Origin: a virus
IMG/VR virus record: IMGVR_UViG_3300036466_000025
Coordinates: 1 to 39,650 of that record
DNA: 39,650 nt
Reading direction: 5' to 3' (one strand)
Below the pieces are notes generated by a model. That model was not told the DNA's origin and searched no databases. It was given only the letters and a program-made list of their open reading frames with translations. Shown piece after piece: positions 2-33,270 of this stretch (position 1 is the stretch's first letter; each line of letters starts with the position of its first letter). The position numbers and the translations under genes are program-made.

Positions 2-229
2 GACATTGGCGCACATGATGAAGTGATTAACCTAATGTCACGGATGGTGAATGATTTCAACAAGCCTGTCGAAAAGGTTGTTGTAGGCAAGAAGTATGTC
101 AACCCATTTGAAAAAGCCATGGGTTTGATAGCCGACAAAAAGAAACGCAGAGAGGAAGACGACCTTCGTTTCACTGATGAGCAGATGGTGTACCTGTGCG
201 ACCGTTTTATTAAGGAGTATGTAGAATGA
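2..229 (+). CDS. Hypothetical protein, 5' end cut by window edge
   Basis: The reading frame is open from base 2 with no stop before the TGA at 227-229, so the gene probably starts upstream of the window. A GTG at 23 could start a 68-residue product, but nothing shows that it is the real start. The visible 75 or so residues are charged, with a Lys/Arg/Glu/Asp-rich stretch (KKKRREEDD) in the middle, and no recognised domain. The stop overlaps the ATG of the next gene (ATGA), so it is the first visible gene of the amidotransferase/amidoligase operon. Function unknown. Confidence 0.6.
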   Translation, partial: DIGAHDEVINLMSRMVNDFNKPVEKVVVGKKYVNPFEKAMGLIADKKKRREEDDLRFTDEQMVYLCDRFIKEYVE

Positions 230-873
230 TTAAGGTGTTTATTGTTGGTGCAGATTACGCCATTGGTGATATGTTCCGTGAGCGTGGTTATGAGATAGTC
301 ACTGAGCTTAGTGACGCAGATATCGTGCAATTCACTGGAGGCGCTGACGTGTCCCCAGGTTTGTATGGTGAAGATGAGCATCCACGTACCTACTTCACCC
401 CGATGCGTGATGCAAATGAGAAGATGATTTATGACAATTGTCTTGCTATGGGAACCCCAATGCTGGGCATATGCCGTGGTGGTCAGTTCCTCAATGTTAT
501 GAACGGTGGCAAGTTGTATCAGGATGTTCGTGGACATGCCATGCAGGGGCTCCATGAATGCTTTGATTTGCTTACAGGACGTAGGCATATGGTTAGCTCC
601 ACTCACCATCAGATGATGCGAATGGGTGCGACTGGGAAGCTCCTAGCCATAGCTACGCACATTGGTAAGGACAAGCAACACATGGCAGATGGTCAGTGTG
701 TTACTGTTCATGACGATGTTGTAGACACAGAAGCTGTGTTCTATGAGAACTCAATCTCCCTGTGCTTCCAACCACATCCTGAGTATGGCTATGCTGCTGA
801 CTCATGCCGTGACCTGTACTTCTCATACATTGAGAAACTCATCTTGCCTTATTTGGGCTATGTCTCACGCTAA
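226..873 (+). CDS. Class I glutamine amidotransferase (peptidase C26-like)
   Basis: The 215-residue protein is a triad-type class I glutamine amidotransferase of the peptidase C26 / gamma-Glu-GABA hydrolase type. It has the nucleophile elbow GICRGGQ (Cys83) and the catalytic His184 and Glu186 in QPHPEYG, preceded by a FTGGADVSPGLYG segment typical of C26 proteins. Such enzymes release ammonia from glutamine or cleave gamma-glutamyl amides. The ATG overlaps the upstream stop as ATGA. It lies in the same run as a class II amidotransferase, two amidoligases and an ATP-grasp ligase, so it probably supplies ammonia to, or trims gamma-glutamyl products from, that pathway (inference). All three triad residues are present, so it should be active. 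The substrate cannot be read from the sequence. Confidence 0.88.
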   Translation: MIKVFIVGADYAIGDMFRERGYEIVTELSDADIVQFTGGADVSPGLYGEDEHPRTYFTPMRDANEKMIYDNCLAMGTPMLGICRGGQFLNVMNGGKLYQDVRGHAMQGLHECFDLLTGRRHMVSSTHHQMMRMGATGKLLAIATHIGKDKQHMADGQCVTVHDDVVDTEAVFYENSISLCFQPHPEYGYAADSCRDLYFSYIEKLILPYLGYVSR

Positions 874-883
874 GGGGTGTGTT

Positions 884-1057
884 ATGAAACGTGAAGTAGG
901 TTTCTATTGGGTAATGTATGAGCTAGATGAGTGGACTGTCGGCCATTACGATGACGGATGGAAACGTCCGTGGTCGTTAGTTGGTAGCTATGATCCAATT
1001 TCGGAGGACGAGCTGCATGTCATCGGAGATAAGATAGATTATCCAGCGCCTCAATAA
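884..1057 (+). CDS. Small hypothetical protein (57 aa)
   Basis: I start this at ATG 884, which follows a strong AAGGGG ribosome site at 872-877; longer in-frame starts would lie deep inside the upstream amidotransferase gene. The product is 57 residues, rich in Trp, Tyr and acidic residues (FYWVMYELDEWTVGHYDDGW), and ends in a Pro-rich tail. It looks like the small compact Trp-rich proteins common in phages, but I do not recognise the family. It is the last gene before the 51-base spacer holding the repeated element, so it may end one transcription unit. Confidence 0.7.
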   Translation: MKREVGFYWVMYELDEWTVGHYDDGWKRPWSLVGSYDPISEDELHVIGDKIDYPAPQ

Positions 1058-1098
1058 GGGGTGCTAAAATCCGTAATTTTTGCCACAAAATATTTTGG
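1058..1098 (+). promoter_or_regulatory. Repeated intergenic element, copy A
   Basis: This 41-base stretch starts directly after the stop of the 57-residue gene. It reads GGGGTGCTAAAAT, then CCGTA, then ATTTTTGCCA, then CAAAATATTTTGG. Aligned without gaps to 7268-7308 it matches at 30 of 41 positions. It ends in the perfect dyad CAAAATATTTTG (1086-1097), and it also has AAAAT...ATTTT arms at 1066-1080. The first base of the next gene's start codon is 11 bases downstream, with a GGAG ribosome site partly inside the element. It could be a phage-specific promoter, an operator or an RNA leader control; the sequence alone does not decide. Confidence 0.6.
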
Positions 1099-1108
1099 AG
1101 AAACAGAT

Positions 1109-2494
1109 ATGTGTGGATTAGTAGGCGTCGTTGGCGCTATTGACGATAAAATCAAGAAAGCTTTCAACGATATGTTGGTATTAGACGTAATACGCGGCCA
1201 CCATTCAACTGGTGTGTGCACCGTTAACCGTTACGGTGGTGAGGTGAGCGTTGTCAAGAAGGTGGGGACACCTGACCAGTTGTTCGACAGCAAAGCGTAT
1301 GATGCAGCAATGCTGGCATCTAAATCAGTCCTTATGGGACATAATCGCTGGGCTACTAAAGGCTCTGTTACAGTAGCCAATGCCCATCCTTTTGAGTTCG
1401 ATACACTGGTTGGTGCTCACAACGGCACCCTTCGCCAACAATCTTTGTTAGATGACCATGCCAAGTTCACTGTAGATAGTGAGAACCTGTTCTATCACAT
1501 GGACAAGAATGGTGTGGAAGACACTATCGCAAAGCTCAACGGCGCCTACGCTCTAACGTGGTACGACAAAACTGACAACACAGTTAACTTCTGCCGTAAT
1601 GATGAGCGGCCACTTGTTGCCTGTTACACTAAGGACCGCAAGACAATGTTCTGGGCATCTGAGGCTTGGATGATTACTGTTGCAACAACCCGTCGCAGCA
1701 TTGAAATCACAGACATCTTCAAGATTGATGTTGACAAGCACTACAAAGTACACATCCCTAAGACTGTTGGCATTGTTCAGCAGCCTTTTGAGATAGAAGA
1801 TTTTGTAGTGACACCAGTAAAGCCTTTTCGCACACTCCCAGCGGTCAGCAAGACGACCTCGACTACCTCAAATGGTGGCTCGACCAGTGGGCGACAAACA
1901 ACGGCTGGGACGACGATCATCTCTAACTCTAGCGTGGGAAAGTACGCAGGGGTTGGCTCAGGGAAAAGCTCGCCAGACTTATCAGCATACTCTGATTTCC
2001 TCGGACAGACGGTTGAGTTTATTGTAAGGGGTGATGAAGTTGATGAAGAGACTGGTGAGATATTTATCGACTGTGAAGCTGTAGACGACCCCGATATAAA
2101 CATTCGTGCTTATGTCCAGCCACGTACAACGCAATGGCATGAGATGCTTCTCAATGACGAGGTGTACCAAGGCACCCCTAAGATGTTCAAGTCACGACAA
2201 GGTGGTTATCTTGTCCTTGATTTACGCACTATCCGTGAGATTCCTGGTCTTGCAGAAGAGCTGGCCTCTGCTGCCGAGGATGAGGACGAGACACTAATCA
2301 AGGTGTATGGTGGTCGCATGGTTAGTCGTCGTACATTCCTGTACCTTGTTGACCACGGGTGTGGTTGGTGTGGTAGTCCGATTGATGAGTCAGACTTCGG
2401 TGAAATTCAATGGGTTGATGCAGACACTTGCATGTGTCCAACGTGTTGCAACAATCCTGACGTTAAGGTTTATTATAGCCATATATTGAGGTGA
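1109..2494 (+). CDS. Class II glutamine amidotransferase with C-terminal Zn-ribbon-like region
   Basis: I choose ATG 1109 because class II (Ntn-type) amidotransferases need Cys as residue 2, exposed after Met removal, and the protein here begins MCGLVG. A GGAG ribosome site lies 8 bases upstream. Of 461 residues, about 1-215 form the amidotransferase domain: GHNRWATKG (77-85), AHPF (92-95), GAHNGT (102-107) and DSENL (123-127), like the glutaminase halves of GlmS, PurF and AsnB. A Ser/Thr/Gly-rich linker follows (about 247-290), then an unfamiliar region. The C-terminus has a CxxC (418, 421) and a Cys cluster (441, 443, 446, 447) that could bind zinc. No sugar isomerase or synthetase domain is present, so ammonia is presumably used by a partner such as the ligases encoded downstream. 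Confidence 0.88.
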   Translation: MCGLVGVVGAIDDKIKKAFNDMLVLDVIRGHHSTGVCTVNRYGGEVSVVKKVGTPDQLFDSKAYDAAMLASKSVLMGHNRWATKGSVTVANAHPFEFDTLVGAHNGTLRQQSLLDDHAKFTVDSENLFYHMDKNGVEDTIAKLNGAYALTWYDKTDNTVNFCRNDERPLVACYTKDRKTMFWASEAWMITVATTRRSIEITDIFKIDVDKHYKVHIPKTVGIVQQPFEIEDFVVTPVKPFRTLPAVSKTTSTTSNGGSTSGRQTTAGTTIISNSSVGKYAGVGSGKSSPDLSAYSDFLGQTVEFIVRGDEVDEETGEIFIDCEAVDDPDINIRAYVQPRTTQWHEMLLNDEVYQGTPKMFKSRQGGYLVLDLRTIREIPGLAEELASAAEDEDETLIKVYGGRMVSRRTFLYLVDHGCGWCGSPIDESDFGEIQWVDADTCMCPTCCNNPDVKVYYSHILR

Positions 2495-2496
2495 TT

Positions 2497-3324
2497 ATGC
2501 AAGTAGGTAAATATGAATTCCTGTTAGGTGCCGACCCTGAATTGTTCATCAAGGACGGCAAAGGGAAACTGGTTAGTGCTTGGGACATGGTGCCCGGTAC
2601 TAAGGACGAGCCACACAAAGTGCGTTGTGGTGCTGTCCAACACGATGGTTTGGCCGCTGAGTTTAATATAAAACCTGCTGCCACTGAGCGTGCATTCAAG
2701 TCAAACTTGACTGCTGTTCAAAACCAACTGCTGGCCTTGTTGCCAGCCAATCATAGTCTGCACGCCATTCCAACGGCACACTTCGGCAAAGCCTTCCTCA
2801 AGAAGCAGCCTGTTGAAGCGTTGGAACTTGGTTGTGACCCAGACTACAATGCATACAGCGGTGAAGTTAACCCACGTCCAGACGCTGGCGAGGTTGATTT
2901 CCGTACTGGTGCTGGCCACATCCACATTGGTTGGTGTGATGGAGTCGAACCACTCCTCCCAGCTCACTTTGAGGCGTGCCGTTTCTTGGTGAAGGAGCTT
3001 GATGCTCGTCTGGGTGTACTGTCCCTCCTGTGGGACGACGACAAGGAACGTCGTATCCTGTATGGAAAGGCGGGCTGTTTCCGCCCTAAGCCTTACGGTG
3101 TTGAGTATCGCACACTGTCAAACAAGTGGCTGACTAGCCCTAAACTGGTTGGGTTTGTGTACAACATGACCATTGATGCAATCCGGGCATGTGTCACAGG
3201 TAAAGACCTGTGGCACACCGTGTTCAATGCACAACCTTCCATCAACAAAGACAATGTGACTTTTGCAAAAGATGTCGCCCGTCATTTTAAAGTTGAGGTG
3301 CCAAATGTACGGAAAGGACGCTGA
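2497..3324 (+). CDS. phiEco32-like COOH-NH2 ligase (type 2 amidoligase)
   Basis: The start is ATG 2497, 5 bases after a GAGG site that overlaps the previous stop. The 275-residue product has the layout of the phiEco32-like COOH-NH2 ligase family, a branch of the glutamine synthetase / gamma-glutamylcysteine synthetase fold: GADPELF (11-17), DGLAAEF (50-56), GCDPDYNAY (112-120), GAGHIHIGW (138-146) and GVEYRTLSNKW (201-211). The acidic and His residues match the metal and ATP-binding positions expected of this fold. These enzymes are predicted to join a carboxylate to an amine using ATP. It sits between the class II amidotransferase and a second amidoligase. Family assignment is from remembered motifs, with no search. 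Confidence 0.82.
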   Translation: MQVGKYEFLLGADPELFIKDGKGKLVSAWDMVPGTKDEPHKVRCGAVQHDGLAAEFNIKPAATERAFKSNLTAVQNQLLALLPANHSLHAIPTAHFGKAFLKKQPVEALELGCDPDYNAYSGEVNPRPDAGEVDFRTGAGHIHIGWCDGVEPLLPAHFEACRFLVKELDARLGVLSLLWDDDKERRILYGKAGCFRPKPYGVEYRTLSNKWLTSPKLVGFVYNMTIDAIRACVTGKDLWHTVFNAQPSINKDNVTFAKDVARHFKVEVPNVRKGR

Positions 3325-3853
3325 TTATGCAGGCTCTCGTCTTAACGGAACCGTAGTACGTTACGGCGAAGACCCTGTGATGGTTCAACATGTCGATGAA
3401 AATGTCGTGTGTCATTGCTATGTGCTTGACACTGGCAAAGAGATTCAAGTGCCGTTAAGTGACCTGAATCTTTTACCTGTCCCTCTCGGATACATCAACT
3501 CACCCGGTCGTCATGCGTATTACGCTGTGAGACGCCCTATGAGACGAGATTGGAGACAAGGGCTACGGTACAACAGCATGGTGATTACAGACCGTCCTGT
3601 TGCTCCTGAGGAGATACCGTGGATTGACATTGCACGTACCATCCGGGGTAAATACCCCACGTTCAAAGAGTTGGTGGAATCCCTTGAGCGTGATGAGTTG
3701 ACCAAAACCACCGCATGGTCACGGCAGTATGCCCTGACTCCAGAAGCCACAGTGAAATATTGTGGCATGACAATTGGCCACCTTAAGAACGGAACTCTTA
3801 TCTTCAAAGAAGACTTCACTTACCTAAAAGAGTCGTTCGAGGAGACGTTATGA
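3305..3853 (+). CDS. Amidoligase-operon companion protein, unknown function
   Basis: ATG 3305 follows a GAGGTG site at 3295-3300 and lies inside the end of the upstream ligase gene. The 182-residue product opens with a region that looks beta-rich (NGTVVRYGEDPVMVQHVDE, then a segment ending PLSDLNLLPVPLG), which may be a small barrel. A basic middle part follows (VRRPMRRDWRQGLRY), and then a mixed helical C-terminal half. No catalytic motif is recognised. It overlaps the genes on both sides (20 bases upstream, ATGA downstream), so its product is probably needed in step with the two ligases, perhaps as a carrier, substrate-binding or scaffold subunit. That role is inferred from position only. 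Confidence 0.8.
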   Translation: MYGKDADYAGSRLNGTVVRYGEDPVMVQHVDENVVCHCYVLDTGKEIQVPLSDLNLLPVPLGYINSPGRHAYYAVRRPMRRDWRQGLRYNSMVITDRPVAPEEIPWIDIARTIRGKYPTFKELVESLERDELTKTTAWSRQYALTPEATVKYCGMTIGHLKNGTLIFKEDFTYLKESFEETL

Positions 3854-4740
3854 AGACTGTAATCGACTGGTTCAATATCCCGCGTGAGTATCACCAGAAA
3901 GGTGAGGTAGGTATTGAGATTGAAGTGGAGGGGCGACGCCTTCCACAAGCTCCCAAGTATTGGAGAGCAGACTACGATGGCAGTCTACGTGGGGCTGAGA
4001 ACTTGGAATACGTTCTCACCAAGCCATTGTCACGTAACGCCAGCCGTGTCGCCCTTGGCTATCTTAAGCGTGCTTTCAAAGAAAACAAAAGCACAATTGA
4101 TGATACTGTAAGGGCTGGCATTCACATTCATATCAATGTGCAAGAGCTCAACATCGTTGAGGTGTACAACATGATGTGTCTGTATTTGGTCATGGAACCG
4201 CTGCTCATCAAGTATTGCGGAGAAGGACGGGAAGGAAACCTGTTCTGTCTTCGAGCAATGGATGCACCATTTCTATTGCACATGCTGAGCCGAGCGGCAC
4301 GTCGCCGTCACTTCCGTGAACTTGTATCAGACAACTTACGCTATGCGTCCATGAATGTGAAAGCACTGGGTCAGTACGGAAGTCTGGAGTTCAGGGCACT
4401 GCGCTCTACCTCTGACATGGAGCGTATCAACAAGTGGGTGGAACTGCTTCTGTGCATCAAGGATGCTGCTAAGAAGTTCGCCGACCCTGTAGATGTAATC
4501 AATAGCTTTAGTCTTGATGGCCAAGATGCGTTTATCAATAACGTATTTGGTGGCAACGCTGAGCTGGTCAAGGGATTGTCCGATGATTACCAAGTGTTAA
4601 TGCAAGCCGGTATGCGCTGTTCACAAGATGTTGCGTTCAGCGTAAACTGGCAAGCTTTCTTGGAACCAGAGATGGTTGAGATTGGTGGGCTTAAGTTCCC
4701 TAAAAATATGTGGTTTGATGAGCCACAACATGATTGGTAA
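3850..4740 (+). CDS. Amidoligase_2-type ligase
   Basis: The 296-residue product has the signature of the Amidoligase_2 family, also in the glutamine synthetase-like fold: GIEIEVE (21-27), the DYDGSL (41-46) and LEYV (52-55) pair, AGIHIHIN (89-96), and a C-terminal LRYASMNV followed by YGSLEFRALRST. The Glu and His residues of these motifs are the expected Mg-ATP ligands. Members are predicted to form amide or peptide bonds. The start codon overlaps the previous stop (ATGA), showing tight coupling. Two amidoligases of different subfamilies plus an ATP-grasp enzyme in one operon suggest successive ligation steps. The substrate is unknown. Confidence 0.85.
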   Translation: MKTVIDWFNIPREYHQKGEVGIEIEVEGRRLPQAPKYWRADYDGSLRGAENLEYVLTKPLSRNASRVALGYLKRAFKENKSTIDDTVRAGIHIHINVQELNIVEVYNMMCLYLVMEPLLIKYCGEGREGNLFCLRAMDAPFLLHMLSRAARRRHFRELVSDNLRYASMNVKALGQYGSLEFRALRSTSDMERINKWVELLLCIKDAAKKFADPVDVINSFSLDGQDAFINNVFGGNAELVKGLSDDYQVLMQAGMRCSQDVAFSVNWQAFLEPEMVEIGGLKFPKNMWFDEPQHDW

Positions 4741-4752
4741 GAGAGGTTGAAA

Positions 4753-5526
4753 ATGGCTAAAGTATTTATTGCTCCGTACAAAATGGGTAGTGAGTCTGCA
4801 AAGGCTCTGTCACAAGAAATTGGTGCGCTTCGTATACGTAACGAGCGCTCTAAGTTCAAGGGCAATCCAAACAAGGTGGTTATTAACTGGGGTTGTTCAA
4901 AGCTTTCTGATGAAGCAATGAAGTGCCGGGTTATCAACCATCCAGATGCTGTCTCTATTGCAGCTAACAAGTTGAAGTTCTTCAACAAAATCAATGAAGT
5001 GGGGGGCGTACGTGTCCCAGAAACAACCACCGACAAAGCTGTCGTACAAGATTGGCTACGTGACGGCAGCTCTGTTGTTTGTCGTACTATCCTCAACGGT
5101 AATAGTGGTGCTGGTATCGTCCTTGTGGAGCCTGGCGATGACGTTGAGGTGGTAAACGCACCGTTGTACGTCAAGTATGTTCCTAAGAAACAGGAGTACC
5201 GTGTCCATGTTCGTGGTGGTGAGGTGGTTGACGTACAACGAAAAGCACGCCGTAAGGAGACGCCTGACGACCAAGTGAATTGGAAGATTCGCAACCATGA
5301 CAATGGCTTCATATTTGCTCGTCAGGACATTGACTGTCCTGATGATGTGAAGGCTCAAGCATTGGGAGCTGTTGAAGCCATTGGACTGGACTTTGGTGCT
5401 GTTGATGTCATCTTTAATGAGAAGGCACAACAAGCGTATGTATTGGAAGTCAACACAGCCCCCGGCCTGAGTGGGACAACACTGGAAGGTTATGCTAAGG
5501 CATTTGGAGGACTGAAGGATGCGTAA
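4753..5526 (+). CDS. ATP-grasp ligase (RimK / D-Ala-D-Ala ligase-like)
   Basis: I start at ATG 4753 rather than TTG 4747 because the GAGAGG stretch at 4741-4746 then has normal spacing. The 257-residue protein shows ATP-grasp features: a Lys near residue 73 (ANKLKFF), a glycine-rich loop RTILNGNSGAGI (111-122), the hinge strand YVKYVPKKQEYRVHV (139-153), DFGAVDV (213-219) and the metal-binding end LEVNTAPGLSGTT (231-243). The short N-terminal part is smaller than in RimK or Ddl. ATP-grasp ligases activate a carboxylate as an acyl phosphate and join it to an amine. It is the last enzyme of the amide-chemistry run, and the next gene overlaps it by 8 bases. Confidence 0.87.
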   Translation: MAKVFIAPYKMGSESAKALSQEIGALRIRNERSKFKGNPNKVVINWGCSKLSDEAMKCRVINHPDAVSIAANKLKFFNKINEVGGVRVPETTTDKAVVQDWLRDGSSVVCRTILNGNSGAGIVLVEPGDDVEVVNAPLYVKYVPKKQEYRVHVRGGEVVDVQRKARRKETPDDQVNWKIRNHDNGFIFARQDIDCPDDVKAQALGAVEAIGLDFGAVDVIFNEKAQQAYVLEVNTAPGLSGTTLEGYAKAFGGLKDA

Positions 5527-7368: not shown

Positions 7369-8469
7369 ATGAAACCTTATTCAATCTATGGGGATGTCAC
7401 TTGTGGCAAAACCCTTGCACAATTTATGGAAGCTATGAAGCAACCTTTCGTAGTACAAGGAGCGCTTATGCCAGATGCACATGCTGGCTATTCGCTACCA
7501 ATTGGGGGCGTGGTAATGACCGAGGATGCGGTTGTCCCTGCTTGGGTTGGCTATGATATTGGCTGTGGTGTAACTTCTACCCGCCTCAACTTGAAGCTTG
7601 AAGAATTTATCGTGGACTACGAGGAGTTGCGCAAGGCAATTCTTGAAGTTGTCCCTGTTGGATTCAACATCCACACAGAAGCGCAAGACAATCTCTTTCT
7701 CTCTCACAAACTCTCTGTGCTTAAGCACGAACACATGGACAAGTTGTACGATGCCAAGGCATTACGCTCTATCGGCACACTCGGTGGTGGTAATCACTTC
7801 ATCGAGATAGGGGTTGATGAAGATGGTTACATCTGCATCACCGTACACACTGGCTCCCGTGGCTTTGGTCATGCCGTAGCAAGCTACCATATGGCTAAGG
7901 CCGCTGGCTCTGACAAGCCAAAAGAAGGTCATTACCCATACACCAAGCCAGAGGACATCCAAACCTACCTGAAAGATATAAAATTCACCACTTGGTTCGC
8001 TCAAATGAACCGCTATCGTATTCTTTCTCGTGTTCAGGAATGCATCAGTAACATGGTCCACCCCTGCAACCGAGACATCATCGCAAATGTCCCACACAAC
8101 ACTGTAACAGAGGTTGGTGGTGGTATGTATGTTCACCGTAAGGGTGCAACTGAGGCTGCCCTAGGCCAAACCACAGTGATCCCTGCAAATATGCGGGATG
8201 GTGTGTATATTTGTGTTGGTAAAGGGGATGTTGAAGCTATTGTGTCAGCTTCCCATGGCTGTGGACGCACTATGAGTCGTGCACAAGCCAAACAACTCAT
8301 CACTAACGAAAAGTTTAAAGCGCAGATGGGCGCTATCGTATGTGATACGAGCGGGAAAACAGATGAAGCGCCTGATGCTTACAAAAACATTCACGAAGTG
8401 ATGAAAGCCCAGTCTTCATGTGTCAAAGTTGTTAACTTTATCCGTCCATTAATTAATGTAAAAGGTTAA
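7369..8469 (+). CDS. rtcB: RtcB-type RNA-splicing ligase
   Basis: The 366-residue protein is an RtcB RNA ligase, which joins RNA 3'-phosphate or 2',3'-cyclic phosphate ends to 5'-OH ends using GTP and Mn. Family signatures are all present: MPDAHAGYSLPIGG (34-47), GYDIGCGV (61-68, with Asp63 and Cys67 as metal ligands), GTLGGGNHF (136-144), HTGSRGFG (160-167) and SASHGCGRTMSR (293-304), where His296 is the residue expected to be guanylylated. It is a little shorter than E. coli RtcB (about 408 residues). The ATG follows AAGGAA. It heads the replication gene block after the repeated element. With two tRNA genes in the same phage, repair of tRNAs cut by host nucleases is a plausible job (inference). 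Confidence 0.93.
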   Translation: MKPYSIYGDVTCGKTLAQFMEAMKQPFVVQGALMPDAHAGYSLPIGGVVMTEDAVVPAWVGYDIGCGVTSTRLNLKLEEFIVDYEELRKAILEVVPVGFNIHTEAQDNLFLSHKLSVLKHEHMDKLYDAKALRSIGTLGGGNHFIEIGVDEDGYICITVHTGSRGFGHAVASYHMAKAAGSDKPKEGHYPYTKPEDIQTYLKDIKFTTWFAQMNRYRILSRVQECISNMVHPCNRDIIANVPHNTVTEVGGGMYVHRKGATEAALGQTTVIPANMRDGVYICVGKGDVEAIVSASHGCGRTMSRAQAKQLITNEKFKAQMGAIVCDTSGKTDEAPDAYKNIHEVMKAQSSCVKVVNFIRPLINVKG

Positions 8470-10355: not shown

Positions 10356-10839
10356 TGTGTTAATCGAAGAGTTTTATATTGAGAACCGTAAGCGTCTTGT
10401 TAAAGCTGTTGCTGCTCGGTGTCGTGACTTTGACGATGCTGAGGATATAGTTCAAGAGGCGTTCTGTCGTGCCCTCAAATACCTCGATTGGATCGATAAA
10501 GAAGACATGCACAGATGGTTCCACACGGTTATTGATAACGCTTACAATGACCATATGAGGGCCAAGCGTCGTAGTGGCTGTTCTGACCACATCGAGGTGG
10601 AAGAAGACCATACCACATTTGAAATGTCTGAGTGGGCAGAGGATATGGTGGAGAAACTTGAAGAGGAGATTAGCATCCTCCAAAATGGGTTGTACCGTCA
10701 ATTCTTCTACCTAGTTCTTATACGTCAGTTCAAACCAAAGGAAGCGGCTGAGGTTGTTTCTGTATCCCCTGTCAATGCCCGTAAGGCATTACAGCGTTTC
10801 AAAGAGGACTTTGTAGCTAAATATGGAGAAAGAAGTTAG
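10342..10839 (+). CDS. ECF-type RNA polymerase sigma factor
   Basis: I start at GTG 10342 because a strong GGAGG (10331-10335) lies 6 bases upstream; the longer TTG start has no such site. The 165-residue product has the two-domain plan of ECF sigma factors. Region 2 spans about 10-76, with DFDDAEDIVQEAFCRAL (29-45) and the WFHTVIDNAYNDHMRAKRR helix (59-77) that binds core polymerase and opens the -10 region. Region 4 spans about 105-160, with the helix-turn-helix KPKEAAEVVSVSPVNARKAL (131-150) that reads the -35. The acidic linker (about 83-105) is typical. It should redirect host RNA polymerase to phage promoters, as known for the phiEco32 sigma factor gp36. No anti-sigma gene is seen next to it. 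Confidence 0.88.
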   Translation: MSRCNVLIEEFYIENRKRLVKAVAARCRDFDDAEDIVQEAFCRALKYLDWIDKEDMHRWFHTVIDNAYNDHMRAKRRSGCSDHIEVEEDHTTFEMSEWAEDMVEKLEEEISILQNGLYRQFFYLVLIRQFKPKEAAEVVSVSPVNARKALQRFKEDFVAKYGERS

Positions 10840-12751
10840 TGTATTCGACATTGAAGCAGATGGCCTGCAAGCAACCCGTATCCATTGTTTGTCCGCCAAG
10901 GTGGGAGGAAGGCTGGTTTCTACCGCTAACTATGGCAACATTGCCAAATACGTTAGCCACAAAGACCGGGTTATCGTCGGGCACAACATCATCAGGTATG
11001 ACATACCAACAATAGAACGGATTATCGGCTGTAAGGTAGAGGCTAAGTGTGTTGACACACTCATCCTATCATGGTATTTGTTCCCTGAACGTCCTCGCCA
11101 TGGATTGGCAGACTGGGGGGAATACTTCGGTGTTCCTAAACCTCCTGTAGAGGACTGGGAAAACCAACCGCTGCACGTATACATCCATCGTTGTGAAGAA
11201 GACGTTAAGATTAATACGCTTCTTTGGGAAAAGATATGGGGCTATCTACTTGAGCTTTATGGAAGTGAGGAAGAAGCTTGGAGGCTTATTGACTACCTCA
11301 TGTTCAAGATGGATTGTGCCAGAGAGCAAGAGCGTGTACGCTGGAAGCTCGATGTTGTACGTTGTGAGGACGTGCTGGCTAAGTTGCAGAAAGAGAAGCA
11401 GGAAGCTTATAAGAACCTGATAGCGTCAATGCCAAAGGTTCCTGTGAAGACTAAGAAGTCAAGGCCAGCTAAACCGTTCAAACAAGATGGAAGCATGTCA
11501 GTAACAGGCGAGAGATGGTTTGCTCTCCTCAAAGAACATAACCTACCTGACTGGTGGAACAAGGAAGTGGAAGTGATTACTGGATGGAAGGAACCTAATC
11601 CCGGTAGTCACGAGCAAATCAAAGCTTGGCTGTATGAAATGGGCTGGAAGCCTATGACATTCAAATATGTCAAACGCAAGGAAGAAGACATTGAAGCTGA
11701 GTATCAGGCTGGTAATCGTAGGCCTGAGCGTTATCGTCCGATTGAGCAGATATACCTACCAAACTCTGGTGGTTCCCTTTGTCCCTCTGTTAAGGAATTG
11801 ATGGAGGAAAAAGAGCCAAACCTGAAATGGCTGGAGGGTGTGTCTGTTATCTCCCATCGCATCACCATACTGGAAGGATTCCTTAAGGAGGTGGATGGCG
11901 AGGGGTATGTTCAAGCTCAGATTCAGGGCTTGACTAACACAATGAGGTTTAAACACAAGGTTGTTGTTAACCTACCGGGCGTTGATAAGCCCTACGGAAA
12001 GGATGTCCGTGGTGTTCTTGTCGCACCAGAAGGGTATGAATTATGTGGTTCTGATATGTGTTCATTGGAAGACCGCACGAAGCAGCACTACATGTACCCT
12101 TACGACCCTGAATACGTTAAGGAGATGATGACTCCTGACTTCGACCCACACATTGACATTTGTGTTCAAGGTGGTTTGATGTCAATCGAGGACGCCATCT
12201 CTTACAAGAATGCCGATGAGGGATTCAAGACCACTAAGTTGTATAAAGCACTTGGTGGTGTACGTAAGAAAGGGAAAGCTACAAATTACGCTTGCGTCTA
12301 CGGAGCTGGTGGCCCAACAGTGGCACGCTCTGCTGGCATCTCCGAGTCAGAAGGAAAGGACCTCGTTGAGATTTACTGGAAACGTAATTGGTCTGTAAAG
12401 GCTGTAGCTGAGGCTCAGGAAGTCAAGGTTGTTCATGGTCAGAAATGGCTATTCAACCCAGTATCAAGGCTGTGGTATTCACTACGTGCAGAAAAGGACA
12501 GGTTCAGTACACTGAATCAAGGCACAGGTGTTTACTGTTTCGATACATGGACTGGCTTCTGTAGACATGGAGGCTTAGTTATGTGTGGCCAAATGCACGA
12601 TGAATGGATTTCTTTAGTGCGTAAAGGCCAACGTGACCAAGTTATTAAGATAGCGAAAGACGCTGTACAGAAAGTAAATAAGCTACTAAAACTAAACAGA
12701 GACTTAGATTGTGATGTCCAGTTTGGAGATAGTTATTCAGACATACACTAA
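10823..12751 (+). CDS. Family A DNA polymerase (T7-type)
   Basis: The 642-residue protein has a 3'-5' exonuclease domain and a family A polymerase domain. Exo motifs: VFDIEADGL (7-15), VGHNIIRYDIPTIE (52-65) and YIHRCEEDVK (120-129). Polymerase motif A is SDMCSLEDRTKQHY (410-423), motif B is RKKGKATNYACVYG (482-495) and motif C is QMHDEW (590-595). All catalytic acids (Asp411, Asp593, Glu594) are present. It is the phage replicase, used with the primase-helicase, exonuclease and ssDNA-binding protein nearby. Motif A replaces the usual DYSQIE with DMCSLED, a form I associate with phiEco32-like and related phages. It overlaps the sigma factor by 17 bases. The C-terminus (VQFGDSYSDIH) looks complete despite the endonuclease gene that starts inside it. 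Confidence 0.94.
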   Translation: MEKEVSVFDIEADGLQATRIHCLSAKVGGRLVSTANYGNIAKYVSHKDRVIVGHNIIRYDIPTIERIIGCKVEAKCVDTLILSWYLFPERPRHGLADWGEYFGVPKPPVEDWENQPLHVYIHRCEEDVKINTLLWEKIWGYLLELYGSEEEAWRLIDYLMFKMDCAREQERVRWKLDVVRCEDVLAKLQKEKQEAYKNLIASMPKVPVKTKKSRPAKPFKQDGSMSVTGERWFALLKEHNLPDWWNKEVEVITGWKEPNPGSHEQIKAWLYEMGWKPMTFKYVKRKEEDIEAEYQAGNRRPERYRPIEQIYLPNSGGSLCPSVKELMEEKEPNLKWLEGVSVISHRITILEGFLKEVDGEGYVQAQIQGLTNTMRFKHKVVVNLPGVDKPYGKDVRGVLVAPEGYELCGSDMCSLEDRTKQHYMYPYDPEYVKEMMTPDFDPHIDICVQGGLMSIEDAISYKNADEGFKTTKLYKALGGVRKKGKATNYACVYGAGGPTVARSAGISESEGKDLVEIYWKRNWSVKAVAEAQEVKVVHGQKWLFNPVSRLWYSLRAEKDRFSTLNQGTGVYCFDTWTGFCRHGGLVMCGQMHDEWISLVRKGQRDQVIKIAKDAVQKVNKLLKLNRDLDCDVQFGDSYSDIH

Positions 12752-13181
12752 CTACAGGTATGACGAGGGGTCCGGCCTGTTCTATAGTAAAAATGGGAAG
12801 CAGGTTGGCTCATACACACGTAAGTATGCACGCCTTTGTACATCCAATGGACAGGTTGCATTACACAGACTAGCCTTCCTTATTAAATTAGGCAGGTGGC
12901 CAATAGGGGAAGTAGACCACATAAATGGGGACACCCATGATAACAGGTGGGAGAACTTAAGGGAGTGTAGCAGAGAAGATAACGCAAAGAACAGGCCAAA
13001 GTATTCTTCTAACACATCTGGTGCAAAGGGTGTGCAGAAAGTTGGGAAAAAGTTTAAAGCATCTATCCGGTGCGGGAACACATACCATTATTTAGGTTTG
13101 TTCCAGTCACTGGAAGAGGCGTCAATAGCATACAATAAAGCAGCTAAGAAATTATTTAAAGAATTTAAGAGAGGTGAGTAA
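12714..13181 (+). CDS. HNH endonuclease with AP2 DNA-binding domain (homing type)
   Basis: About 155 residues combine an HNH nuclease (HRLAFLIKLGRWP, then EVDHINGDTHDNRWENLREC and NAKNRPKYSSN) with a C-terminal AP2 domain (SGAKGVQKVGKKFKASIRC ... YLGLFQSLEEASIAYNKAA). This pairing is the standard free-standing phage homing endonuclease. The start is uncertain: the frame allows GTG 12711, ATG 12714 or later non-ATG codons, and no clear ribosome site precedes them. I use ATG 12714 because the family usually begins about ten residues before the YDEGSGLFY block. It lies over the last 38 bases of the polymerase gene, a common landing site for such elements. Confidence 0.85.
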   Translation: MSSLEIVIQTYTNYRYDEGSGLFYSKNGKQVGSYTRKYARLCTSNGQVALHRLAFLIKLGRWPIGEVDHINGDTHDNRWENLRECSREDNAKNRPKYSSNTSGAKGVQKVGKKFKASIRCGNTYHYLGLFQSLEEASIAYNKAAKKLFKEFKRGE

Positions 13182-13182
13182 T

Positions 13183-13896
13183 ATGTGCGCATTAAAAGCA
13201 CAACGTCGTGAGATGGGTAAAGGTGGTAAACTGCAATCTCCTCTGCTTGACCCAGATAACTTCCCAGCCCGTCTGGTGCAAGTGATTGACTTGGGTTTGC
13301 AGAAGAACTTCTTCGATGAAGACAAGGTTAACCACGAAATCATGCTTACGTATGAGCTGGTAGACTGCTTCTGTCTAGATGAGGACGGCAACGAGGTGAA
13401 GGATAAGCCTCGCTGGTTCAGTGAAAAGATTAACCTGATTGACCTGCCTATCGGCATGGACTTACAGGAAATCTACAACGACCAATACCGTGGCAAAGCC
13501 AAGATGGTTCAACGTGCTCGTGCATTCGACCCTAAAGGTGTGCATGACTTCGACTTCTCTCAATATCTTAGTGGAGCATGTGCTGTCACTATCATTCAGA
13601 AGAAGAAGAAGGACGGCACTATCAAGAACGAAGTTGGTGGTGTGTCTGCTCCGATGCGTGGTATGCAGATTGCCGAGTTGGTTAACCCACCTAAGCTGTT
13701 CGCTCTGGACGAACCAGATATGGAAATCTTTAAGTCACTTCCTGAGTGGCTGCAAGACACCATCAAGAACAACCTTGAGTTCAAGGGCAGCAAGCTGGAG
13801 GCACTACTTAGTGGCAAGGATGTTCCGCAGGGTAAGCCAGAGCCACAGCAAGCTCCAGAAGCAGATGGTGAAATGGATGACGACATCCCTTGGTGA
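13183..13896 (+). CDS. Single-stranded DNA-binding protein candidate
   Basis: The ATG at 13183 follows GAGGTGA and is preferred to GTG 13174. The 237-residue product occupies the position of T7 gp2.5, between polymerase and exonuclease. It has a beta-rich core (FPARLVQVIDLG ... HEIMLTYELVDCF) that fits an OB-fold, a Lys run (KKKKDGTIKNE), and an acidic C-terminal tail (DGEMDDDIPW). That last segment closely copies the DDDIPF tip of bacterial SSB, which recruits replication and repair partners. Overall I call it a ssDNA-binding protein; the core fold is inferred, the tail is seen directly. Its stop is followed by two hairpins. Confidence 0.78.
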   Translation: MCALKAQRREMGKGGKLQSPLLDPDNFPARLVQVIDLGLQKNFFDEDKVNHEIMLTYELVDCFCLDEDGNEVKDKPRWFSEKINLIDLPIGMDLQEIYNDQYRGKAKMVQRARAFDPKGVHDFDFSQYLSGACAVTIIQKKKKDGTIKNEVGGVSAPMRGMQIAELVNPPKLFALDEPDMEIFKSLPEWLQDTIKNNLEFKGSKLEALLSGKDVPQGKPEPQQAPEADGEMDDDIPW

Positions 13897-13904
13897 TGAT
13901 GAAG

Positions 13905-13921
13905 GCCTAGATTACCTAGGC
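13905..13921. other. Perfect inverted repeat after ssDNA-binding protein gene
   Basis: GCCTAG at 13905-13910 and CTAGGC at 13916-13921 are perfect complements around a five-base loop ATTAC. There is no T run after it. It lies 8 bases beyond the stop and 12 bases before the terminator hairpin, so it may be an mRNA-stabilising stem or a protein-binding dyad. Confidence 0.5.
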
Positions 13922-13933
13922 TGCACAGGATGG

Positions 13934-13962
13934 GGAGAGGGTTAGCCTCTCCTTTCCTTTCT
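13934..13962 (+). terminator. Probable intrinsic terminator after replication block
   Basis: GGAGAGG (13934-13940) pairs perfectly with CCTCTCC (13946-13952) around GTTAG, followed directly by TTTCCTTTCTT. The T tract is interrupted, so termination may be partial. It separates the polymerase/ssDNA-binding block from the small gene and exonuclease that follow. Confidence 0.65.
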
Positions 13963-13984
13963 TATTAATTTATTGGAGAGATTT

Positions 13985-14185
13985 ATGAGCGAAGTTTACA
14001 TTGGCGCAAGAGTTAAAGTGGTTGATGGTGCGGGTCTGGACAACGATATCCACACTGAGGACGTTGGTACAATCAACGCCAAGTTTGAAGACCCAGAGGG
14101 CAACCGATATGTGATGTTCCAGCCTAAAGGCAAGGCTGAGTTCTACTGGATTGCTGAATGGCGTGTTGAGCTGCTGGAGGATTAA
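13985..14185 (+). CDS. Small SH3-like protein (66 aa)
   Basis: The ATG at 13985 follows a GGAGAG site; the longer TTG start at 13973 has none. The 66-residue product shows the small-barrel pattern VYIGARVKVVDG, HTEDVGTINAKF, YVMFQPKGKAEFYWIAEWRVELL. It is close in plan to the gene at 6892 (VGARVRI ... GTV ... V.W), suggesting a paralog. It is the first gene after the terminator and sits directly before the exonuclease. A role in DNA processing is possible but not shown. Confidence 0.72.
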   Translation: MSEVYIGARVKVVDGAGLDNDIHTEDVGTINAKFEDPEGNRYVMFQPKGKAEFYWIAEWRVELLED

Positions 14186-14188
14186 TCT

Positions 14189-15067
14189 ATGCAGCCACTA
14201 ATCGATGCGGATATTTTGTTATACGAAATTGGTAGCATTGGTCAGTACATTGACGAAGAATCGGGTGAGATTGTCACCCGTGACTTCGACTTTGTTGCTT
14301 ACCATTTAGACCAAAAGGTTAAAGAAATCTGTGGAATGGTGTGGGCCACTGAGCCACCTATCTTATTCCTTACAAACAACTGGAGAATCCACAAGAAGGA
14401 AAACCGCCAGCGTAAGCGGGAAGGTAAGGAAGAAAAGGAATTCGTTCCTAACTTCCGTGAGAAGGTAGCCAAGGCTAAGAAGTATAAGGGCACACGCCTA
14501 CCAGAGAAACCATTCCATTACGACAACTTGATTGCGTATATGCGGGGCAATTATGACGTACGTATTGCCGAGGGATATGAGGCTGACGACCTCATCTGTA
14601 TTGAACAGTATTCCCGACTCGATAAACTTGACACCATCATCTGCACTAGGGATAAAGATTTACGAATCTGTCCGGGAATGCATTTCGGATGGGAGTGTGG
14701 TAAACAGCGTCAGTTTGGACCAAAACGGGTCAGTGAGGTTGGAGAAATACACCTTGTCGGAAATAAGACTAAGAGCATAAAAGGCGAAGGCCTAAAGTTC
14801 TTCTATTCCCAGATGATTACTGGGGACAGTGTGGATAACATCCCAGGATTACCTAAAGGTGGACCTGTGATGGCTGACAAACTGCTGGCTGATTGTGAAA
14901 CAGAGGAACAAATGTTCCTTCGTGTATCAGCCGCATATAAGAATAAGCTTGGTGATGAATGGCGTCCATACTTCCAAGAACAAGCGAACCTCCTGTGGAT
15001 GTGTCGTGAGTTTGAAGAGGATGGTACCACGCCTAAGCGCTATGTAATGTTTGACGAGAGAGGTTAA
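14189..15067 (+). CDS. 5'-3' exonuclease (FEN / T7 gp6-type)
   Basis: The 292-residue protein carries the metal-binding acidic residues of the 5'-3' exonuclease / flap endonuclease family: DADILLYE (6-13), GYEADDLI (129-136), TRDKDL (153-158) and TGDSVDNIPGLPKGG (211-225, with the helix-hairpin-helix start that grips the DNA backbone). In T7 the equivalent gp6 degrades host DNA for nucleotides, removes RNA primers and helps recombination. The middle KENRQRKREGKEEKEF segment (about 70-85) fits the flexible arch that threads the 5' end. It is cotranscribed with the 24-residue peptide and HNH nuclease. Confidence 0.92.
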   Translation: MQPLIDADILLYEIGSIGQYIDEESGEIVTRDFDFVAYHLDQKVKEICGMVWATEPPILFLTNNWRIHKKENRQRKREGKEEKEFVPNFREKVAKAKKYKGTRLPEKPFHYDNLIAYMRGNYDVRIAEGYEADDLICIEQYSRLDKLDTIICTRDKDLRICPGMHFGWECGKQRQFGPKRVSEVGEIHLVGNKTKSIKGEGLKFFYSQMITGDSVDNIPGLPKGGPVMADKLLADCETEEQMFLRVSAAYKNKLGDEWRPYFQEQANLLWMCREFEEDGTTPKRYVMFDERG

Positions 15068-15069
15068 TT

Positions 15070-15144
15070 ATGAATGACAACAGTGGATTTATATTGGTGT
15101 TCTTTATGTGTTTCATAGCTAGTTTGTTATTACTTGGGGTGTAA
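15070..15144 (+). CDS. Tiny membrane peptide (24 aa)
   Basis: ATG 15070 lies 2 bases after the exonuclease stop, with GAGAGG upstream, and the frame ends at TAA 15142-15144, exactly before the next ATG. The 24-residue product (MNDNSGFILV then FFMCFIASLLLLGV) has a five-residue polar head and one hydrophobic helix. It is similar in kind to the 46- and 17-residue membrane peptides elsewhere in this arm. Its perfect fit between two genes, with no overlap and no gap, argues for translation. Confidence 0.55.
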   Translation: MNDNSGFILVFFMCFIASLLLLGV

Positions 15145-15561
15145 ATGGCAGGACGTAGAGGTGGCGAGAAGACTCGCTGTTCAGGTGCTTGGACGGAAGC
15201 TAAATTCCGCTCATTCGTAAAAGGTAATTTACGAAGAGCCACAATGAAGTGGGCACCAATTCAGCAATGTCTTGCAGCAGCTCGTGAGGAGCGTGGCAAG
15301 TATCGTTGTGCTGGATGTGGGGAATTGGTTCCAGCTACTGTTAAAGTTGGGCGTCTTCGTAAGAAGAACGTTCATGTTGACCATATACAACCTATTGTAG
15401 ACCCAAATGTTGGGTGGGTTAGCTGGGACAGTACGATTGACAGGATGTTCTGTGAGTTGGATAACTTGCAAGTGTTGTGTACATCATGTCATGACATCAA
15501 AACACAAGAAGAAAAAGAAATGGCTAAGGCCAGAAGAAATGCGGAGAAAGATTATGAGTGA
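15145..15561 (+). CDS. HNH nuclease with zinc-binding cysteines
   Basis: The 138-residue protein has a basic N-terminus and a zinc-bound HNH core: CAGC (55-58), HVDHIQPIVDP (77-87) and DNLQVLCTSCHDIKT (106-120). The spacing of the two CxxC pairs around the HVDH is the usual phage HNH/endonuclease VII-like layout. It sits right after the exonuclease, where T7 has its endonuclease I, so it may process recombination or replication intermediates rather than act as a homing enzyme. That is inference from position. The start follows the 24-residue peptide's stop without a gap. Confidence 0.83.
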   Translation: MAGRRGGEKTRCSGAWTEAKFRSFVKGNLRRATMKWAPIQQCLAAAREERGKYRCAGCGELVPATVKVGRLRKKNVHVDHIQPIVDPNVGWVSWDSTIDRMFCELDNLQVLCTSCHDIKTQEEKEMAKARRNAEKDYE

Positions 15562-15793
15562 TAGTTACAAGGGGTATAACCTGCACAATGACGTCGAAGA
15601 CCCTGCACTGCGTGCTTGGAATCGGTGTCAGACCGCAATCAACATCCGCAACGACCAAGGCTTAGGAATGGCTGAGGTGTATATTGGTAAGGTTGACTCT
15701 GTTGGTCAACTACAAATGAAGACAGTCTTTCAGGCTATTGCCTTGAAAGGTGAAGATTATGTTCGTCGCAGTGTATTTAAAGGAGCAATCTAA
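15554..15793 (+). CDS. Small hypothetical protein (79 aa)
   Basis: I start at ATG 15554 (GGAGAAAG site just upstream); the frame extends further back only through the HNH gene. The 79-residue product begins MSDSYKGYNLHNDVEDPALRA and continues with an Arg/Asn helix (WNRCQTAINIRNDQG) and a C-terminal half rich in hydrophobic and basic residues. It overlaps the HNH gene by 8 bases and shares one base with the DUF3310 gene (TAATG). I recognise no domain; repeated co-location of such small proteins with DUF3310 is plausible but unchecked. Confidence 0.7.
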   Translation: MSDSYKGYNLHNDVEDPALRAWNRCQTAINIRNDQGLGMAEVYIGKVDSVGQLQMKTVFQAIALKGEDYVRRSVFKGAI

Positions 15794-16200
15794 TGGCAGC
15801 TATTGAACAACAAGTTGGTGGTGATCACTACAAGGGCATGACTTATCAACCTTTTGAATTTGCTATGGACGTAGGGGGTACACCAGCTATCTGTAAGGTG
15901 GCTAAGTATCTCACTCGTGTGAAAGGTGACCGCCTTGAGAACCTACGTAAGGCCTACCACTGTATTCAGTTGGAGCAGGAATACCTTGCCTCCCCTAAAG
16001 GGAAAGAGCTGTACATGGGGGCCACAGAGCCGTGTGAGCTTGACGATATTGACAAAGCGTTCATCAAGAAGTTCTGTGGCCAGTTCCAACAAGGGGCTGT
16101 GTACAAAACAGTTCTCGAATGTACGCTTAGCAATAAGCATTCCAAGGCTATGGAGAACCTCACTAAGTTCGTTAAATATATGCGCTGGGAGTATATCTAA
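15793..16200 (+). CDS. DUF3310 (SaV-like) protein
   Basis: The 135-residue product opens with the DUF3310 signature: QQVGGDHYKGMTYQPFEFA, AICKVAKYLTR and a LENLRKAYHCIQL helix. This small helical family is widespread in phages and often lies among replication and nucleotide genes, but its biochemistry is not settled. The start shares one base with the previous stop and has an AAAGGAG site. The C-terminal half (about 75-135) is not part of the core motif and ends in a basic helix (KFVKYMRWEYI). Confidence 0.85.
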   Translation: MAAIEQQVGGDHYKGMTYQPFEFAMDVGGTPAICKVAKYLTRVKGDRLENLRKAYHCIQLEQEYLASPKGKELYMGATEPCELDDIDKAFIKKFCGQFQQGAVYKTVLECTLSNKHSKAMENLTKFVKYMRWEYI

Positions 16201-16202
16201 CT

Positions 16203-16373
16203 ATGATGAAAGACACTAACCTCTTTGGGGAGGAGCCAATAATTCGTAAGGTGAGAGGTAAGTATGTGCTGTTCACTGCTGATGGTAAGCGTCGGCTTGG
16301 TACACACAATACACGTAAAGAAGCCTTGGCTCAGGAACGAGCTGTACAAGCTAGTAAACACAAAAAAGGGTAA
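16203..16373 (+). CDS. Small basic hypothetical protein (56 aa)
   Basis: ATG 16203 starts a 56-codon frame ending at TAA 16371-16373. The product is strongly basic: KVRGKYVLFTADGKRRLGTH then NTRKEALAQERAVQASKHKKG. The pattern of two short strands followed by one helix (a GK-R-LG-x-x turn, then TRKEAL) resembles the small modules that contact nucleic acids in phage proteins, but I cannot name it. It lies 2 bases after the DUF3310 stop and 3 bases before the next ATG. Confidence 0.6.
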   Translation: MMKDTNLFGEEPIIRKVRGKYVLFTADGKRRLGTHNTRKEALAQERAVQASKHKKG

Positions 16374-16376
16374 GTG

Positions 16377-16952
16377 ATGACATCAGTATATATTGCCGGG
16401 CACATGCTTGATAAAGGCGCGCAGCTATTGCGCGCTAAGGAGCGTGATGACATTAAGGAACTGGGCTATGAAATTTACAACCCAGCGGACAACAAGGACA
16501 TCAATAATAAAGCAACAGCTATCCCCGAGGGCTTGGCTGAGCGTATTGTACTTGCTGACACTGCTGCTCTATGTAACGCTGATGTGGTTGTGGTTGAGCC
16601 TCAACCGTATGCATTGGGAACACATATTGAGCTTGGTCAGCTCCTAGGCATGAAGGACTTGGCCAATGAAATCCTAGAGATTATTGACCGTGGTGATTGG
16701 GATGAATGTGATCCTTACGAGCTGCTCTGTGCTATTATGGAGAGATGCGGGCGTGTTCGTGCCACCAGAGTTTATCCCCATATGGAAGACATCCGAAGGG
16801 AAACAACACACCCAGAGGCCGGAGACAGACGCTCATGGGCAGTCAATCAATACGTCTACGGGGCATGTCTTAAACTGACAGATGGCCGTGGTTTCTATGA
16901 TTGGGAGGAGATATTGGATGAATTACACAAAGAGAAGGACTTGGAATGGTGA
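16377..16952 (+). CDS. Nucleoside 2-deoxyribosyltransferase-like protein
   Basis: The 191-residue protein starts at ATG 16377, with an AAGGG site upstream. The N-terminal 95 residues follow the nucleoside 2-deoxyribosyltransferase fold: VYIAGHM (4-10), an Asp near the middle (Asp61), ADVVVVEP (68-75) and GTHIELGQLLG (81-91), whose Glu85 is the expected nucleophile. Members swap bases between deoxyribonucleosides or hydrolyse nucleotides. The last 95 residues form a separate charged helical domain I do not recognise. Located just before the anaerobic reductase genes, it fits a nucleotide-supply role. The exact reaction cannot be told from these motifs. Confidence 0.75.
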   Translation: MTSVYIAGHMLDKGAQLLRAKERDDIKELGYEIYNPADNKDINNKATAIPEGLAERIVLADTAALCNADVVVVEPQPYALGTHIELGQLLGMKDLANEILEIIDRGDWDECDPYELLCAIMERCGRVRATRVYPHMEDIRRETTHPEAGDRRSWAVNQYVYGACLKLTDGRGFYDWEEILDELHKEKDLEW

Positions 16953-16961
16953 GGAAGGGGA

Positions 16962-17093
16962 ATGATAGAACAAGTTGAGTGGGCGTTGATGAAAGCCCAA
17001 GACTCCATTAATAACTATGATGCTGAGTCAACTAAGCACTACCTAGCCATGGCGCGTCTGTGGCTTGGTCATATGAAGAGGAGCAACAAGTGA
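16962..17093 (+). CDS. Small hypothetical protein (43 aa)
   Basis: ATG 16962 follows GAGGAAGGGG at 16951-16960 and opens a 43-codon frame ending at TGA 17091-17093. The product is a predicted two-helix peptide (MIEQVEWALMKAQDSINNY then AESTKHYLAMARLWLGHMKR) with a basic end. Its stop overlaps the GTG start of nrdD (GTGA), suggesting translational coupling with the reductase. It could be a small partner of NrdD or just a coupling leader. Confidence 0.55.
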   Translation: MIEQVEWALMKAQDSINNYDAESTKHYLAMARLWLGHMKRSNK

Positions 17094-18940: not shown

Positions 18941-18987
18941 TAGGGGGTTTTGCCCTTCTCATCATAATTGTTATTGGGAGTGTTTAA
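18934..18987 (+). CDS. Possible 17-aa hydrophobic microprotein between nrdD and nrdG
   Basis: ATG 18934 has a GAGGG site (18923-18927) with 6-base spacing and opens MLIGGFALLIIIVIGSV, 17 residues that are almost all hydrophobic, ending at TAA 18985-18987. The stop shares one base with the nrdG ATG (TAATG), and the start lies inside the nrdD stop region. It may be a translated membrane peptide or simply a coupling device that brings ribosomes to nrdG. The good ribosome site and exact overlap favour translation; size makes proof impossible from sequence. Confidence 0.4.
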   Translation: MLIGGFALLIIIVIGSV

Positions 18988-19439
18988 TGAACTACTTGGC
19001 ATACTACAAAGAAGATTATATGAATGGAGAAGGGAGGAGAGTTGTACTATTCGTATCAGGCTGCTCTCACGGATGTAAGGGCTGTCACAATGCTGCAAGC
19101 TGGGATGCTGATGCAGGTCTTCCAGTAGATGCCGAGTTAGTTGACCGCATTCTAAACGATTTAAAAGAAGCTGACGGCTTTACTATCACTGGAGGGGACC
19201 CACTATACCCTGCAAATAGAACGCCCGTTAGAGAGCTTCTCTATCGCATTAAAAAGAAATATCCTGACAAGGATGTTTGGATGTGGACTGGATACAAATA
19301 CGAAGACGTTAAGGACGTCGCTGCCCTTAAGTTTGTTGATGTGCTGATTGATGGGAAATATGAAAAGGATTTGCCACCAGCACCTTGGCGTGGAAGTGAC
19401 AATCAAAGAATAATCAAATTGGAGAGACAACATGACTGA
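18987..19439 (+). CDS. nrdG: Anaerobic ribonucleotide reductase activase (NrdG)
   Basis: The 150-residue protein is the radical SAM activase that makes the glycyl radical on NrdD. It has the cluster motif CSHGCKGC (Cys26, 30, 33), preceded by VVLFVSG and followed by HNAASW, and the SAM-contacting TITGGDPLYP near residues 70-80. Length matches T4 NrdG (156). I start at ATG 18987, where a GGAG site lies 7 bases upstream; the frame open further upstream overlaps nrdD and lacks family similarity. All three cluster cysteines are present, so it should be active, under low oxygen. Confidence 0.95.
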   Translation: MNYLAYYKEDYMNGEGRRVVLFVSGCSHGCKGCHNAASWDADAGLPVDAELVDRILNDLKEADGFTITGGDPLYPANRTPVRELLYRIKKKYPDKDVWMWTGYKYEDVKDVAALKFVDVLIDGKYEKDLPPAPWRGSDNQRIIKLERQHD

Positions 19440-33264: not shown

Positions 33265-33270
33265 TTAATT

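Follow-up and report, generated by a model that had tools for sequence, protein, structure and literature searches.

The DNA examined here, referred to as the window, is the viral record IMGVR_UViG_3300036466_000025, a single podovirus-like contig of 39,650 bases and an incomplete record. Positions 226–5526 of its + strand carry a module of amide-bond enzymes, arranged as one run in the order I-II-L1-x-L2-G. A COOH.NH2 ligase type 2, an Amidoligase_2 protein, an ATP-grasp ligase and a class II amidotransferase lie side by side in it, accompanied by a class I enzyme and a further conserved gene, x, and the stub of another gene, U, precedes them. The features of this region are the following:

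2–229, + strand: stub of U, the C-terminal 75 amino acids of a ~280-residue protein truncated by the contig end (assigned by position and NPF motif).
226–873, + strand: I, class I amidotransferase fold, Peptidase_C26 (PuuD/SpuA-like), predicted gamma-glutamyl-amide hydrolase (PF07722, 4e-21; PHROG 7218, 5e-52).
884–1057, + strand: open reading frame of 57 amino acids, with no PHROG match and no homologue in the loci examined.
1109–2494, + strand: II (GATII), class II glutamine amidotransferase with Cys2, a GlmS/PurF-type glutaminase domain and a C-terminal domain.
2497–3324, + strand: L1, phiEco32-like COOH.NH2 ligase type 2 (PF14395, 6e-8; PHROG 3815, 4e-74), with GTG 2491 as an alternative start.
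3305–3853, + strand: x, phrog_11055, 182 amino acids, a Tudor/KOW-like SH3 barrel and a second part without a solved match.
3850–4740, + strand: L2, Amidoligase_2 (PF12224, 5e-9; PHROG 7469, 1e-88).
4753–5526, + strand: G, ATP-grasp ligase, RimK/MptN-like (PHROG 2599, 1e-97), with ATG 4753 as the likely start.

An earlier sequence-only reading had placed five enzymes with intact catalytic motifs here, and all five are located. Its description of a run with overlapping starts and stops holds for L1, x and L2 (overlaps of 20 bases for L1/x and 4 bases for x/L2, followed by a gap of 12 bases before G) but not for I and II, which are separated by 235 bases holding the 57-residue open reading frame; the latter is probably outside the module. 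Its parts list was correct for the enzymes but missed x, the stub of U and a gamma-glutamyl cyclotransferase (GGCT) that recurs among relatives. The module is real and not a chance grouping, since the same gene order is repeated in diverged viral contigs and the PHROG E-values of its proteins range from 1e-32 to 1e-121. Hydropathy revealed no membrane-spanning segment in any module protein, and PADLOC models of known anti-phage defence systems gave no match for the eight proteins tested.

The catalytic positions of each enzyme family are nearly invariant in alignments of 69–90 diverged relatives, a pattern that suggests active enzymes under selection; the loss of catalytic residues on alignment, which the sequence-only reading had named as a danger to itself, is not seen. 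Invariant residues of L1 are D13, E15, E55, H141, H143, R185, K198, E203 and R205 (90 relatives), and those of L2 are E23, E25, E27, E53, H92, H94, E180 and R182 (80 relatives). Profile comparison detects no homology between L1 and L2, so that their common fold is taken from the literature, and a PDB sequence search with L1 gave no match. The best NCBIfam models for G are MptN (2e-12) and RimK (4e-9), and its best PDB matches are 7qyr, 5zct and 4iwx. The RimK/MptN alpha-glutamate ligases are thus the closest relatives of G, but it scores beneath every curated cut-off and belongs to a separate phage family (PHROG 2599). MptN and RimK add glutamate, in the case of RimK to ribosomal protein S6. 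Assignment of G to the R2K clade of ATP-grasp enzymes (CDC123-like) was rejected, both R2K_2 (0.0011) and R2K_3 (0.038) being under the cut-off.

The Cys83/His184/Glu186 triad of the class I enzyme is 99–100% conserved (80 relatives). Pfam assigns the protein to Peptidase_C26 (4e-21), with GATase (2e-4) under the cut-off. Among NCBIfam models it is matched best by gamma-glutamyl-CDP-amidate hydrolase and gamma-glutamyl-GABA hydrolase, GMP synthase being weaker, and the closest solved structures are Lin1909 (3fij), a 'probable glutamine amidotransferase' (7d4r), which we take to be SpuA of Pseudomonas, and PuuD (6vtv). PuuD and SpuA are accordingly its closest relatives, but the similarity is low and all NCBIfam scores are far beneath the equivalog cut-offs. 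These sequence neighbours make hydrolysis of gamma-glutamyl amides a likelier role for the class I enzyme than ammonia donation. Moreover, no synthetase partner is evident that it could supply with ammonia. The proposal of two ammonia donors in the module is therefore not supported for this enzyme: the triad of a glutamine amidotransferase is present, but gamma-glutamyl hydrolases are nearer than the GATase families.

The likely start of the class II enzyme, ATG 1109, places Cys at position 2, and its glutamine-site residues R80, T83, N105, G106 and D123 are 97–99% conserved; together with the fold these features establish class II membership. In the Foldseek comparison its model matches not only the GlmS/PurF glutaminase but also the gamma-glutamyl amidohydrolase EgtC, and among the matches listed it is covered in the glutaminase domain only and not in the C-terminal domain. 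Four cysteines of the latter (C418, C421, C443 and C446) are conserved in ~95% of relatives and probably form a zinc ribbon.

Gene x overlaps both L1 and L2, and its conservation within this phage group equals that of the enzymes. Besides the contigs described below, 27 phage records contain it, including those of PA11, CVT22 and Klebsiella phages; Vp_R1 and LAh_8 also have it, as do phiEco32 and tf, where the match is weak. It was undetected in the modules of phages phi14:2 and Lbo-JY46 and is not regarded as a universal module part. The AlphaFold 2 (AF2) model of x has a predicted local distance difference test score (pLDDT) of 97. In this model residues 1–62 fold as an SH3 barrel resembling those of Tudor/KOW domains (best Z 6.8), which is a common arrangement, and the second part has no PDB match among the matches listed. 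The strongest conserved positions are G62, R76, R80 and G86, with a variable C terminus. A LysW-type amino-group carrier was rejected, as the last residue varies (Glu in 2/90) and there is no conserved C-terminal Glu. A similarity to SspH (3e-5, just under the cut-off, 10/89 members matching) is read as that of a small common barrel and not as a functional clue.

The properties of x and G bring up protein tagging, in which a protein of the host or the phage would receive glutamate or a peptide from G and the amidoligases, with x as the docking factor. Such a role would agree with the RimK/MptN-like nature of G and with the barrel of x, a fold frequent in translation and transcription factors. 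On the other hand, RimK-fold ligases also modify cofactors (MptN, CofF), SH3-barrel Z-scores below 7 indicate no function, and two modules are without detectable x. We regard protein tagging as rather unlikely.

Full-length U (~280 residues) lies directly upstream of the C26 gene in relatives, the two often overlapping by 4 or 8 bases. U is found in 106 loci, with invariant Cys and Arg and a near-invariant His, and has no Pfam match, no PDB match and no informative PHROG match. The stub in the window overlaps the start of the class I gene by ATGA, matching the arrangement in relatives, and shares with them an NPF motif close to the C terminus. The assignment is made on position and this motif, because the stub gives no significant hidden Markov model (HMM) match. 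In phage PA11 the gene spans the arbitrary ends of the record NC_007808 and is hence annotated only partly (ORF070).

G and L1 each served as the seed of a scan through 2.9 million viral contigs. The two scans yielded 160 loci; adding the window and the loci of annotated phages gives 124 distinct contigs. II, L1, x, L2 and G occur together in 106 of them, and x is present in 113. In all but one of the other 18 the contig apparently ends at the module or within it, which leaves co-occurrence in 106 of 107 uncut contigs; as the sample was drawn via L1 or G, it gives no measure of how frequently the remaining genes occur alone. The sole exception seen, a 54.6-kb viral contig (L030), carries G and GGCT without detectable L1. 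I-II-L1-x-L2-G is the most frequent order. When 50,697 phage records were searched independently by tblastn, L1 and G each matched 317, and the two sets, compared by genus breakdown and not record by record, are nearly equal (L1/G: Pseudomonas 121/120, Escherichia 93/93, Vibrio 22/22, Proteus 8/8); by chance ~2 records would be common to both. These figures favor the suggestion of a multi-step amide or peptide pathway inherited as a unit; independent occurrence of the genes, which would have spoken for the opposite, is rare.

II, L1, L2 and G are also side by side in the crAss-like Cellulophaga phage phi14:2 and in the cyanophage Lbo-JY46. In the latter, a Leptolyngbya phage (L174), three C26-like proteins lie within or close to a single module (positions 10811–19304). 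Among bacterial genomes L1 matches only five contigs, all from metagenome-assembled bins; four of them hold C26, GATII, L1, x, L2 and U together, and all four also match ATP-grasp (one more weakly); the fifth is a 5.8-kb fragment. These contigs (L167–L171), which include Crocinitomix, Colwellia, Dojkabacteria and Patescibacteria bins, are probably phage contigs within bacterial bins. As all bacterial matches are of this kind and most have a phage-like gene set, the module in its present form looks virus-only.

The closest annotated relatives of the module belong to Pseudomonas PA11-like phages and Salinivibrio phage CW02 (Zobellviridae according to their records). In Paundecimvirus PA11, TC6 and O4 and in Salinovirus CW02 I-II-L1-x-L2-G is found in identical order, likewise adjoining primase/helicase and sigma factor genes; the PA11 proteins are 38–61% identical to those of the window, and in the PA11 record U is divided between the two ends. 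CW02 carries GGCT, whereas none was seen in the incomplete window record. RIO-1/PSA-HP1, LUZ24-like and phiEco32-like phages have L1, L2, G, GATII and x clustered as in the window, but in these stretches GGCT is present and C26 missing, and the order in tf and phiEco32 is L1-x-L2-II-G-GGCT. The module has thus been described in related phages: such genes were reported for TC6, tf, UFV-P2, PSA-HP1 and OM43 phages, and through them for PA11, RIO-1, LUZ24 and phiEco32. In the PSA-HP1 and U17 papers the set is named a peptidoglycan modification cassette or module with reference to Iyer and Hardies, and the PSA-HP1 paper assigns it to blocking superinfection. The sequence-only reading had traced the idea to Iyer et al. 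(2009), with the product unidentified, and this agrees with the papers that quote Iyer.

A gamma-glutamyl-cleaving family, GGCT or C26, accompanies nearly every module. Among 50 near-complete module-bearing records GGCT is found above the Pfam cut-off in 26, C26 in 46 and either of them in 49; in the window the family present is C26. GGCT is carried by phiEco32, tf, Vp_R1, LAh_8, phi14:2 and Lbo-JY46, and a C26 match is missing from the module stretch of all of these except Lbo-JY46. That modules without C26 tend to carry GGCT is only suggestive. The presence of C26 or GGCT, the match of GATII to EgtC and the position of G nearest to MptN and RimK point, by family membership, to making and removing gamma-glutamyl links as the theme of the module.

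We give an even chance to a pathway in the cytoplasm by which amide bonds of the gamma-glutamyl (isopeptide) type are made and trimmed. In it the glutamine-synthetase-like ligases L1 and L2 would use ATP to activate the carboxylate of a side chain and link it to an amine, and G would extend a carboxylate by an amino acid, probably glutamate. C26, the glutaminase domain of GATII and, in many relatives, GGCT would cleave gamma-glutamyl amides and so strip a protecting or carrier glutamyl group, as PuuD and BtrG do; GATII may also free ammonia from glutamine. PuuD removes the glutamyl group in putrescine breakdown and BtrG in butirosin synthesis. x and U would probably dock the enzymes on the target or take the last step. 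The module lies beside replication genes, and the pathway would run early in infection. The likeliest single target, though a tentative one, is a cell-wall precursor made in the cytoplasm, whose alteration would hinder superinfection or attack. The parallels with PuuD, BtrG and superinfection are drawn from general knowledge and from the prediction in the literature.

Several points weigh against this pathway. C26 and class I glutaminases have an identical triad, and the class I enzyme might hydrolyse glutamine itself. The C26/GGCT swap has a Fisher p of 0.018 within 10 kb of the module and of 0.06 and 0.61 in the other samples, uncorrected for relatedness, and GGCT was not found in the incomplete window record. 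Nothing in the data points specifically to the cell wall. No assay of any enzyme of the phage module was found in the literature, nor any experiment on the cassette in the open literature.

A strict peptidoglycan modification cassette, in which unusual links on stem peptides shut out other phages, is possible but doubtful; it is stated in PMC5498523, PMC11945000 and PMC10580990 and goes back to Iyer 2009 and Hardies 2013 as a prediction only. The D-Ala-D-Ala ligase family is distantly related to G, which would suit this proposal. So would the named hosts among the matches listed, which are bacteria with an outer membrane and a wall of the meso-diaminopimelate (mDAP) type. But the module contains no Mur-ligase or MurT/GatD relative, nothing in it is exported, and neither x nor the C-terminal domain of GATII has a wall-binding signature.

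The similarity of C26 to PuuD and SpuA, enzymes of gamma-glutamyl-polyamine breakdown, together with GGCT, which works on small gamma-glutamyl compounds, may also indicate a small metabolite. The product would then be a cytoplasmic gamma-glutamyl peptide or polyamine conjugate that helps in takeover or in evading defences, and no macromolecule would be modified. We consider this unlikely, as no amine-making enzyme or transporter was recognised in the conserved neighbourhood and x and U are left unexplained. It is quite improbable, finally, that a gamma-glutamyl conjugate of unknown type is placed on a host macromolecule by U as a transferase- or protease-like enzyme with x as its docking protein, in a virus-only pathway common to short-tailed phages, a crAss-like phage and a cyanophage.

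The carrier virus is lytic and infects bacteria. The left half of the contig (+ strand) consists of early-type genes, namely the amide module, a MazG-like protein, RtcB, primase/helicase, an ECF (extracytoplasmic function)-type sigma factor, DNA polymerase, an exonuclease and an anaerobic ribonucleotide reductase. The right half (− strand) is structural, with tail proteins, major head protein, head-tail adaptor and large terminase subunit. The RtcB RNA ligase (7369–8469; PF01139, 9e-80) is a short way downstream of the module; phage RtcB may repair tRNAs cleaved by host defences. A nucleoside 2-deoxyribosyltransferase-like protein (16374–16952) is followed by NrdD (17060–18940) and NrdG (18921–19439), an anaerobic ribonucleotide reductase pair that suggests a host sometimes growing without oxygen. 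Two tRNA genes, Arg (tct) and Pro (tgg), are situated at 33188–33348 on the − strand amid the structural genes, and an Endonuclease VII/HNH-like gene (35482–35961) is flanked by those of the terminase and head-tail adaptor.

This neighbourhood bears on DNA or nucleotide hypermodification, in which amino acids would be joined to a carboxylated base. In cyanophage S-B43 CmoY does so after CmoX/CmoA, which is the only proven phage amide ligation found in the literature (PMC12783734). The chemistry is likewise amide ligation, the module adjoins replication genes, and the window has the MazG-like and deoxyribosyltransferase genes. But the ligase family of CmoX/CmoY differs from those of the module and the required partners are missing: CmoA and C5-methyltransferase families are each found in 0/50 near-complete records, the window record has no C5-methyltransferase, and no hydroxymethylase, glycosyltransferase or base kinase was recognised in it. 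The CmoX route was rejected on the missing CmoA and C5-methyltransferase, and hypermodification as a whole is very improbable.

The module is real, intact, co-inherited and widespread. More than 300 sequenced phages, some of them infecting laboratory strains of E. coli and P. aeruginosa, keep these 5 kb, about one tenth of a 50-kb genome. Together with x and U, the new role proposed for the class I enzyme narrows the search to gamma-glutamyl chemistry (a glutamate mass, +129 Da) or to chemistry that releases pyroglutamate.

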